Shown one piece after another: positions 22,250-33,185 of a stretch of DNA of 47,971 bases. Where the stretch lies: positions 1 to 47,971 of the forward strand of contig CAJXZK010000003.1 of assembly GCA_913063055.1 (NCBI GenBank). Reading direction: 5' to 3'. Made by a program: the position numbers and the translations under genes. A model generated the notes under the pieces. That model was given only the letters and a program-made list of their open reading frames with translations, searched no databases and was not told the DNA's origin. Position 1 is the first letter of the stretch, and every line of letters starts with the position of its first letter. Source of the stretch: an uncultured bacterium. Lineage in GTDB: Bacteria > Cyanobacteriota > Vampirovibrionia > Obscuribacterales > Obscuribacteraceae.

Positions 22250-22300
22250 GTATAGAATTAAGGCAATTCCAATTTGCGGCAGAAAAATTTTGGGGATCAA

Positions 22301-24646
22301 ATGTCAAAGAATGAGAACGGAAAGCCTGTAATCAAAGGCCAAATAAAGAGGGCTAAGTTTTCGCAGAAAGATTACACTCATCCTGCCGCTGCCTGGGGCG
22401 CGGCTGCCAGCGTTGGCCGCATTTTGCTGGAGCAAAAGCAAGTTGTGGAGGGTGTCCGTGCCATCTTCACCATGAACCAGGAGAATGGCGGCTTCGACTG
22501 CCCTGGTTGTGCCTGGCCTGATGACCGCAAGGGCCTGCGCATGGACATTTGTGAAAATGGTATCAAGCATGTCACCTGGGAGATGACGGCTAAGCGCACC
22601 GACCGCAAGTTTTTTGCTGAGCATACCGTTAGTGAATTGCTCGAATGGAGCGATTTTGCTCTAGAGAACGAAGGGCGCTTAACTGAGCCAATGAGATACA
22701 ACAGCGCCAGCGATAAATATGAACCGATCAGCTGGGATGACGCCTTTGCTCTCATTGCCAAACATCTGAAAGCTTTGCCTAGTCCTAATGCGGCGAGCTT
22801 CTATACTTCCGGTCGACTCTCTAATGAAGCGACATTTCTCTATCAGCTTTTTGCCCGCGAACTGGGCACCAATAATTTGCCCGATTGCTCCAACATGTGT
22901 CACGAAGCCAGCGGCAGAGCCATGACTGCTTCTCTGGGCACGGGCAAGGGAACGGTTGATTTAGTGGATTGGCAAAATTCTGATGCCATTTTTGTCATTG
23001 GCGTTAACGCTGCCACTAACGCTCCTCGCATGCTCAGTGCTCTGGCCGATGGGGTGAAAGAGCACGATATGAAAATTGTGCACATCAACCCATTGGTTGA
23101 AGTAGCGGCCACCACCGCTATTACGCCCCACGAAATTTTAGACATGCTCACTTTTAAACAGACCAAGACTAGCACCCTCAATTTGCAACCGCGCATTGGT
23201 GGCGACTTTGCCATTATGCGTGGCATCGGCAAATATTTGCTGGAGCTAGCCAAAGAAGACCCCAGTGCCATTGACAATGCTTTTATTGAAAAATATACGG
23301 CTGGTTTTGAGCAGTACAAAGCTGCATGTGAAGCAACTTCTTGGGCCGATATTGAGAAGCAGTCAGCTTTGATGCGAGCCCAGATTTGTCAGGCGGCCGA
23401 TATCTATCGAAAGGCTAATAAGGCCATTATCAGTTGGTGTTTGGGTATCAGCCAACAAGAATATGGTGTTGATACCATTCGCGAAATAGTCAATGTGCTT
23501 TTGCTTCGAGGCAATCTTGGGCGTCTCGGGGCAGGACCTTGCCCTATTCGTGGTCATAGCAATGTGCAGGGCAACCGCACCTGTGGCATTCACCATTCGC
23601 CTTCAGAAGCCTGGTTAGCGAAGATGGACGCTGCTTGTGGTATCACTTCGCCTCGCGCCAAGGGCTTTGATACGGTGCGCACAATTCGTGCCATGTATGA
23701 AGGCGATGTGAAAGTATTTATGGGAATGGGTGGCAATTTCGCCATTGCTACTCCCGATACCAATCTTACTTTTGCGGCCTTGCGCAAATGTGATTTGACT
23801 GTGCAAGTCAGTACCAAGCTCAATCGCAGCCACTTAGTTGTGGGCCGCGACGCGCTCATTCTGCCTTGTCTTGGTCGCACCGAAGTGGACATGCAAGCAG
23901 AGGGCCCCCAGCAAGTAACTGTAGAAGACTCAATGAGTATGGTGCATTTGTCGAAAGGCATGCGCGAGCCAGCCTCGCCTCATTTGCGCTCAGAACTGGC
24001 AATAATAGCGGGAATGGCTCGGGCTACTCTGGAGAACTCAAAGACTCCATGGGAAAAATATATTGGCAATTATGATTTGATTCGCGACAAAATGAGCGAA
24101 GCAATTGTTGGTTTCGAAGATTTCAACAAACGTGTGCGAGAGCCTTTGGGCTTCCGCATTAAGCAACCTGCTCGCGAACTGACTTTTAATACCCCAACTA
24201 ATCGCGCTAATTTCTCGGCGGCGACTTTGCCTGATACTTTGCTGCCACCAGGTCGCCTCATGCTTGGCACCATGCGCTCTCATGATCAGTTTAATACCAC
24301 CATATATTCAGACAATGATCGCTATCGCGGCGTGAAAAATCTGCGTACTTTGTTGCTTATGAATAAAGATGATATGAGTGAGCGGGGCCTGAGCGAGTTT
24401 GATTTGATTGATATCACAAGCTTTGGTAAAGACGGCTCGACCCGCAGCCTCAATGGATTTCGCGCGGTGGCCTACAACATTCCTCGCGGCTGTGCCTCAG
24501 GCTATATGCCTGAATGTAATGTCTTGTGCCCACTAGGTGATTACAGCCCCCAGAGTGATCAACCAATGATGAAGCAGATTGTTATTGAAGTGAAGGCCGC
24601 AGCCAATGCCGTGAACACTGCTACAGCAAACAATGGTGCTCAGTGA
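22301..24646 (+). CDS. FdhF/YdeP-family molybdopterin oxidoreductase (formate-dehydrogenase-like)
   Basis: Molybdopterin-guanine-dinucleotide enzyme of 781 aa, in the TIGR01701 FdhF/YdeP group by its hallmark GGFDCPGCAWPDD (C67, C70). ATG 22301 has GGGGA four bases upstream; the track TTG at 22274 is less likely. Other blocks are TSGRLSNEATFLYQLFAREL, NLPDCSNMCHEASG, GRLGAGPCPIRGHSNVQG and the C-terminal cofactor-binding domain (PGRLMLGTMRSHDQFNTT). No selenocysteine codon is present. Formate is the best substrate guess because fdhD follows and an oxalate decarboxylase is divergent. However, E. coli YdeP has no proven formate activity, so this remains an inference. Confidence 0.88.
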   Translation: MSKNENGKPVIKGQIKRAKFSQKDYTHPAAAWGAAASVGRILLEQKQVVEGVRAIFTMNQENGGFDCPGCAWPDDRKGLRMDICENGIKHVTWEMTAKRTDRKFFAEHTVSELLEWSDFALENEGRLTEPMRYNSASDKYEPISWDDAFALIAKHLKALPSPNAASFYTSGRLSNEATFLYQLFARELGTNNLPDCSNMCHEASGRAMTASLGTGKGTVDLVDWQNSDAIFVIGVNAATNAPRMLSALADGVKEHDMKIVHINPLVEVAATTAITPHEILDMLTFKQTKTSTLNLQPRIGGDFAIMRGIGKYLLELAKEDPSAIDNAFIEKYTAGFEQYKAACEATSWADIEKQSALMRAQICQAADIYRKANKAIISWCLGISQQEYGVDTIREIVNVLLLRGNLGRLGAGPCPIRGHSNVQGNRTCGIHHSPSEAWLAKMDAACGITSPRAKGFDTVRTIRAMYEGDVKVFMGMGGNFAIATPDTNLTFAALRKCDLTVQVSTKLNRSHLVVGRDALILPCLGRTEVDMQAEGPQQVTVEDSMSMVHLSKGMREPASPHLRSELAIIAGMARATLENSKTPWEKYIGNYDLIRDKMSEAIVGFEDFNKRVREPLGFRIKQPARELTFNTPTNRANFSAATLPDTLLPPGRLMLGTMRSHDQFNTTIYSDNDRYRGVKNLRTLLLMNKDDMSERGLSEFDLIDITSFGKDGSTRSLNGFRAVAYNIPRGCASGYMPECNVLCPLGDYSPQSDQPMMKQIVIEVKAAANAVNTATANNGAQ

Positions 24647-32064: not shown

Positions 32065-32103
32065 GGTATTTGCTTAGTTATTTGCCTTAGGCATTTGGAT
32101 TAG
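32065..32103. repeat. 13-bp tandem repeat, three copies
   Basis: Units ggtatttgcttag, ttatttgccttag and gcatttggattag directly after the thioredoxin-like gene (the last unit includes its stop codon). Confidence 0.75.
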
Positions 32104-33185
32104 TGCAGAATTGCCTTGATGCCATAGCGCAGAGCATGATTAACTGTACTCCTGGCCACCCGGCTGCCAGTGCGCTTAGCTTGGGTTTGAATTGGGTGCG
32201 CCTTTGGAGTATTGCCAATCATGGGCGCGCTGCCTAGGTCTGAGCCCTCGGCAATTTTGCCACTAGCGTCGAGAAATTGTTCGTGTTTGTCGTAAATGGG
32301 CTTGCCATAGTCGGCATAACTGGCGACATCAAAGCGCTCATAAGGCTCAAAAGGATGAGCGGCTAAGCGCTGATGCATGACAATATCTACGCTTTTGACG
32401 TTTTTAGGCGGGGTTTTAAGGGTGACAGGATCAATGGCCCGGGCACTGTAGAAGAAGTCTGAGTTTGGTCGGTTTTTCAGTTCATACTGCAAATCAAAAC
32501 CTTGCAGGTGGCTGCGCCCTCTCATGGCTTGATCGTGGCTATTGATGTGATCGAGCTGCAGTTGGCTGAACTGCATTTGCTTTTCTTCAAGGGAAAGACT
32601 CTTGTCTTGCCAGACTTTGCTCAGTTGTTTAGCCAGGGTGAGTTCTTTGGCCAGGTCTTCGGCTTTCCAGTAGCCAGGCAAGCAGGTCATAATTGTGCCG
32701 TCGGGTGTCAAAACAAATATTTGTAGATTGTGCGGTCCGGCGCCATTGGTGGTATCTACAGCTGTTTCGTCTGGCTTGTGTTTGCCTGAAGCTCCAGCGT
32801 ATTTTTTATTTTCGATATTTGTATAGCCCACGACAAAGTCGTTCTTGAGCATTGAGAAAACTGGTTCCGAAGAGAGCGACACGGCTCTCAAGCTATTGCC
32901 GGCACTTCAGGTACTGCCGTCTATTTTGCCCAGCATGTGCACCCAAACAATCAACTTGCCTTCGCGCTCAGCGTCTGCTTCGGCCTTACTTAGCGATTTG
33001 TACCAGGTCATCTCTGAAGTCAGTTTGTGCACATTGGCTGAGCAAATTTCTCCGCTTAACACTGCTTTAGCGTTTGCCTCTGAGCTGCCTAATACTAAAT
33101 TGCCTAAGCCTACATCGAAAGATTGCAGCACCAGGGCGGCTGTGGCCAAAGTGGAACTAATTACAAATCTTCTAGTCTTGGTCAT
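32100..33185 (-). CDS. Exported thioredoxin-like protein with one in-frame TGA (candidate selenoprotein)
   Basis: The track splits this gene into ORFs 33197-32907 and 32891-32100, but both are in the same frame, separated only by TGA at 32909-32907 and five sense codons (SAGNS). From ATG 33185 (the track uses TTG 33197) the product is about 361 aa. The signal peptide (VISSTLATAALVLQ, cleavage near EANA) is followed by a thioredoxin-like fold: EREGKLIVWVHMLGKIDGST, TGA, SAGNSLRAVSLSSEPVFSML, FVVGYTN and IFVLTPDGTIMTCLPGYWKA. The TGA falls at the start of the first helix, where thioredoxins carry the nucleophilic Cys. Either it encodes selenocysteine, or a TGC/TGT Cys codon has mutated, or it is a sequencing error. 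Confidence 0.72.
32872..32889 (-). promoter_or_regulatory. SECIS-like hairpin after the in-frame TGA
   Basis: On the minus strand GAGAGC pairs perfectly with GCTCTC around loop CGTGTC. The stem starts 17 nt after the TGA and the apical loop is 23 nt after it. Loop position 2 is G. These values fall within the published bacterial SECIS geometry (loop 16-37 nt from UGA, a G in the first two loop bases). Confidence 0.5.

Follow-up and report, generated by a model that had tools for sequence, protein, structure and literature searches.

Published Constraints and the Hairpin of the Window

The bacterial SECIS element has been described as a stem-loop within the coding region downstream of the UGA, with a loop of 3-9 nt, a stem of 4-16 bp, a spacing of 16-37 nt between the UGA and the apical loop, a G in the first two loop positions that is mostly followed by G or U, and a minimum free energy (MFE) of -7.5 kcal/mol or lower (PMC13188914). 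Selenocysteine (Sec)-containing proteins with a thioredoxin-like domain are known from the VPGUxxT families (NF041382 and NF041383), and Cyanobacteria have been reported to be without Sec use (2022 review, PMC9312934). The locus considered here lies in a window, that is, the whole stretch of 47,971 nucleotides that was analysed, from a member of the Obscuribacterales. The reading frame runs from 33185 to 32103 on the minus strand, is broken by exactly one TGA (32909-32907), and is followed by a terminator codon (32102-32100). Translated with this TGA (32907..32909) as Sec, the frame gives a coding sequence of 361 amino acids (32103..33185), with Sec at residue 93.

Downstream of the TGA, the stem-loop GAGAGC-CGTGTC-GCTCTC occupies 32872..32889 on the minus strand, and comprises a 5' arm (GAGAGC, 32884..32889), an apical loop (CGTGTC, 32878..32883), and a 3' arm (GCTCTC, 32872..32877). 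The gap between the TGA and the hairpin is 17 nt (32906-32890), and the apical loop is reached after 23 nt, with G as its second base and U as the next. A sequence-only reading of this DNA had put forward exactly this 6-bp stem, 6-nt loop, and spacing, and all of these were borne out. In the 42-nt piece beginning at the TGA, the MFE was -10.8 kcal/mol and the hairpin was part of the MFE fold, as that reading had suggested checking; the centroid of the same piece is another, weaker structure, and the hairpin alone has an MFE of -9.3 kcal/mol. Loop size, stem size, spacing, loop G, and energy all lie within the published limits (PMC13188914), and the hairpin, as an element, is of a known type.

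Nevertheless, the folding energy of the single sequence was unexceptional (z = -0.20), and because 81 of 200 dinucleotide shuffles of the 42-nt piece folded as well, the significance of the hairpin is not demonstrable from the window alone. The caution attached to the proposal, that a 6-bp hairpin may arise by chance and is support rather than proof, was right to this extent. A scan of the whole window against Rfam matched no family. The case for a bacterial SECIS is made by comparative data, not by single-sequence folding, and this comparative evidence argues strongly for it.

Distribution of the Family and of the Selenocysteine Machinery

The comparative set was taken from metagenome-assembled genomes (MAGs) of Obscuribacterales and from Planctomycetota- and Armatimonadetes-labelled MAGs, and consisted of 115 loci representing 113 distinct sequences from two diverged protein families; these sequences are related, and their counts overstate independence. 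The main family, to which the window protein belongs, was found at about 95 places in 41 of 53 Obscuribacterales genomes; almost every place had one in-frame TGA and no more. Identity between the window protein and most family members was 36-62%, and the nearest named relatives were Obscuribacterales or Melainabacteria MAGs. Further Sec copies were found by scanning GTDB species genomes, in records labelled Planctomycetota (L191, L205, and L207-L210), Armatimonadetes (L199), and Fimbriimonas (L183). No family member apart from that of the window's own genome appeared among 386 sampled genomes of the phylum, and beyond close relatives there was no conserved gene neighbourhood hinting at a redox partner.

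The protein was conserved on both flanks of the TGA in these 41 genomes, and also in alignment A2. The TGA stood at the same protein position in every aligned copy save L036, the only Cys copy seen, in which the codon is TGT. In L036, the codons otherwise fixed over the element have become GCG GTC TCT, so that the conserved loop is lost at this position, and a shorter, shifted 5-bp hairpin is retained.

The window's own genome, a MAG of 5.73 Mb (91.6% complete, 4.4% contaminated), contains the complete machinery. Its tRNA-Sec scored 71.3 bits, above the Rfam cut-off, has a UCA anticodon, and adjoins rpoB; SelA scored 522 bits and SelD, in its Cys form, 355 bits; SelB reached 290 bits in two stretches that share a frame. 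Adjoining SelD is a TusA/DsrE-like protein (L018, 679-1365), a usual neighbour in selenium metabolism. Formate dehydrogenase was considered as a second selenoprotein of this genome and rejected: the only match of the genome to the formate dehydrogenase alpha model, a 790-amino-acid gene at 22274-24646 of the window, matched below the cut-off (22664-23803) and contained no in-frame TGA in the match. In another genome of the set, G020, two tRNA-Sec candidates were observed (C100 and C17), the second of them weaker (54.9 bits).

Over the 53 genomes, the occurrence of the main family was associated with that of tRNA-Sec (Fisher P = 7e-5): 38 genomes had both, 8 had neither, 3 had the family only, and 4 had the tRNA only. 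The three family-only genomes were assemblies of 65-83% completeness. The four tRNA-only genomes (G005, G021, G051, and G052), in which the main family was not matched, suggest that further selenoproteins exist in the order.

Hairpins located downstream of a stop codon can increase readthrough in other systems, and the hairpin of the window might in principle act in this way, with a near-cognate amino acid and no selenocysteine inserted at the UGA. We consider this very unlikely, given that the presence of the family tracks tRNA-Sec, that the spacing and loop match those of SelB-dependent SECIS elements, and that the residue found in place of the TGA is Cys, in a thioredoxin-like site. The homologues keep an in-frame TGA, Cys replaces Sec in one of them, and SelA, SelB, tRNA-Sec, and SelD are all found in the same genome as the window. 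We regard it as all but certain that selenocysteine is the residue encoded by the TGA at 32909, and that a single gene spans the frames on its two sides.

Conservation and Covariation of the Element

The first four bases of the loop (offsets 23-26 after the TGA) were CGTG in 103 of the 113 distinct sequences, CGGG in 8, and AGTT in 2, and in all 113, offsets 24-25 held G followed by U or G. At the same loop position, 108 of them had a stem of 5 bp or more without interruption; the contiguous stem was shorter in five, with a one-base bulge (L043, L053, and L067) or a mismatch (L117 and L218). Within the main family, stems at the exact loop position reached at least 5 bp in 85 of 88 distinct sequences and at least 6 bp in 78, while synonymous recodings of the same peptides would be expected to give such stems in only about 4% and 2% of draws, respectively. 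The MFE was -7.5 kcal/mol or lower in 110 of the 113 distinct sequences.

Codon choice was likewise restricted over the element. Among conserved amino-acid columns, codon bias was 1.37 bits over the element (8 columns) and 0.12 bits elsewhere (65 columns; Mann-Whitney P = 9e-10), and the columns over the element were the most codon-biased conserved columns of the gene. The GCC and GTG codons, which form the upper stem and loop, were 100% fixed, against usages of 0.40 and 0.27.

The homologues also contained the compensating changes for which the sequence-only reading had advised looking. At one position of the stem, the main family pairs G with C, and the FCUTN sister family described below pairs A with U; both sides changed in 8 cells, a result reached in 0 of 500 shuffles. 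In Planctomycetota, CGG...CTG is replaced by AGG...CTT between L207 and L208 and between L209 and L210, which exchanges C-G for A-U, and both codon changes (CGG/AGG and CTG/CTT) are synonymous. In the RDVSLS variants, in which A is replaced by D (L071, L090, and L095), the stem is rebuilt in a shifted register and the start of the loop is kept (AAGGGA/TCCCTT in L071; GAGGGA/TCCCTC in L090), and in the GAGGGC-CGTGA-GCC(T)CTC variants pairing leaves a single base bulged. As read from these alignments, covariation is a handful of independent events, all restoring pairing, and the events are few because the sequences are related. Compared with the bacterial SECIS consensus (PMC13188914), the hairpin family differs in that its CGUG loop and stem are unusually uniform over genes and phyla, and in having three pairing registers, with a 4-, 5-, or 6-nt loop.

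A covariance model, R1, was trained on the two families, the window hairpin being among its training sequences, and scored this hairpin at 61.1 bits. In the window's own genome, it found three paralogues (E of about 1e-11 to 1e-12), with no other match having an E below 0.7, and over the 53 genomes every match with E < 0.002 fell in one of the two families. Unassigned R1 matches, once read, gave eight extra genes of the FCUTN/FCUAN type, and the weak matches in relatives (L220-L226) showed no convincing coding frame on reading. Because R1 was trained on these two families, other SECIS types would escape it, and selenoproteins with a different SECIS may be present in these genomes.

It might be argued that the TGA is an ordinary stop, that the gene is split or decayed, and that the hairpin is there by chance; 6-bp hairpins are common, the single-sequence fold is unremarkable, and one relative does hold a truly decayed copy. 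This is L227 (G023:C376), which keeps the TGA with a broken stem. It is a decaying copy of the family, because an in-frame TAA and loss of the frame accompany the broken stem, and no intact homologue was found that keeps the TGA and loses the hairpin, the finding that would have spoken against the original proposal. About 115 loci, however, keep a single TGA at the same place with the protein conserved on both sides, and the codons of the element are fixed far beyond what the protein needs, which makes an ordinary stop extremely improbable. Nor do we give any appreciable weight to the view that the nucleotide conservation reflects another overlapping signal, such as an RNA-binding or regulatory site, with an incidental likeness to SECIS. 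Weak conservation does reach beyond the stem to adjacent codons (AGC at +5 and GAA at +14), but two families with different amino acids there share a position, loop, and stem of the SECIS type, and no Rfam family matches the window. Were UGA reassigned here, to Trp or Gly for instance, the frame would be open and a SECIS unnecessary, but the likelihood of reassignment is negligible given that TGA ends 7 of the 35 stop-to-stop frames of at least 200 codons in the window, that TGA appears to be the terminator of several homologous genes, that the one copy without a TGA at the site has Cys there (L036), and that the Sec machinery is present.

We are therefore highly confident that the hairpin is a functional bacterial SECIS and that the UGA is decoded as Sec within a full 361-residue, probably exported thioredoxin-like protein. 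In the mRNA, SelB with GTP and Sec-tRNA-Sec would bind the hairpin with its CGUG loop, 17-34 nt past the UGA, and would deliver selenocysteine to the ribosome at that codon, so that translation would run on to 361 residues rather than stopping after 92.

The Predicted Thioredoxin-Like Protein and Its Place among Known Families

The first 21 residues of the protein (33123..33185, minus strand) form a hydrophobic N-terminus resembling an export signal, with a predicted helix at residues 9-21, and the N-termini of the homologues are likewise hydrophobic; judged from these sequences, the protein is probably exported. An AlphaFold2 model of the protein (P0001), built with Cys in place of Sec, had a mean pLDDT of 89.1 and, together with Foldseek, predicts a thioredoxin-like domain at about residues 45-193 (32607..33053), followed by a helical C-terminal extension of no recognised family at about residues 194-361 (32103..32606). 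In this model, residue 93 begins the helix that follows strand 78-84, and the order of elements would place it where thioredoxins have their attacking Cys.

The best Foldseek matches were the thioredoxin-fold proteins 3f9u, AGR3, and a DsbH-like protein (E of 2.8e-3 to 1e-2). These matches to DsbD-C, DsbH, and AGR proteins (PDB 3f9u, 3ph9, and 7tkv) extend over about 135-210 alignment columns, as expected if they correspond to the N-terminal domain. The window protein differs from them in having U-S-A-G/A in place of CxxC and in its helical C-terminal half of about 170 residues. Its Sec motif is TUSAGNSLRAVSLS, of which the family form is T-U-S-A-G/A-N-S-L-R, a non-CxxC arrangement; TUSA(G/A) has no Cys three residues on, and corresponds to neither the CxxC of classical thioredoxins nor the UxxC of Sec-thioredoxins. 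The likely nucleophile of the domain would be Sec93 within this motif. A role as a CxxC-type isomerase seems unlikely because the usual resolving Cys is Gly or Ala, and our best guess is a monothiol-like exchange or peroxide-reducing role.

The protein matched no model near the cut-off in searches of Pfam and NCBIfam 20.0, and a sequence search of the PDB gave no match. No motif listed for the 119 selenoprotein families in a 2026 review fitted it, a few of these families being without a testable model or motif (PMC13188914). The VPGUxxT models matched the FCUTN sister family weakly (best E 3e-5), whereas the window family has a different Sec motif and gave no comparable match, with one member at E 0.017 and a score of 15 bits, far under the curated cut-off of 275. 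The sister family (L113-L121 and L212-L219; alignment A3) consists of thioredoxin-like selenoproteins in which Cys and Sec are vicinal (motif FCUTN or FCUAN), and has an in-frame TGA and a SECIS of its own with the same CGTG loop. It is distant from the main family, and profile comparison of the two gave a probability of 97.7% (E 1.7e-12).

In the literature searched, selenocysteine in Obscuribacter was not the subject of any paper, and none of relevance dealt with selenoproteins in Melainabacteria. The protein family appears to be uncatalogued, absence from these sources not being the same as absence from the literature. The main family is almost exclusively of the Sec form, and such families escape searches for Sec/Cys pairs because Cys forms hardly exist. 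It is likely that the Obscuribacterales have an uncatalogued family of exported thioredoxin-like proteins, nearly always in the Sec form, alongside its FCUTN sister, and the two together may be the chief reason why the machinery has been retained there.

Two apparent selenoprotein families are thus added to the catalogue. Standard annotation would truncate the genes of both at the UGA, and methods based on Sec/Cys pairs would miss them. With its re-pairing in three registers, the near-invariant hairpin offers natural data on the requirements of SelB. Moreover, the selenocysteine machinery is found in most genomes of an order whose allies, the Cyanobacteria, are reported to be without Sec use (PMC9312934).
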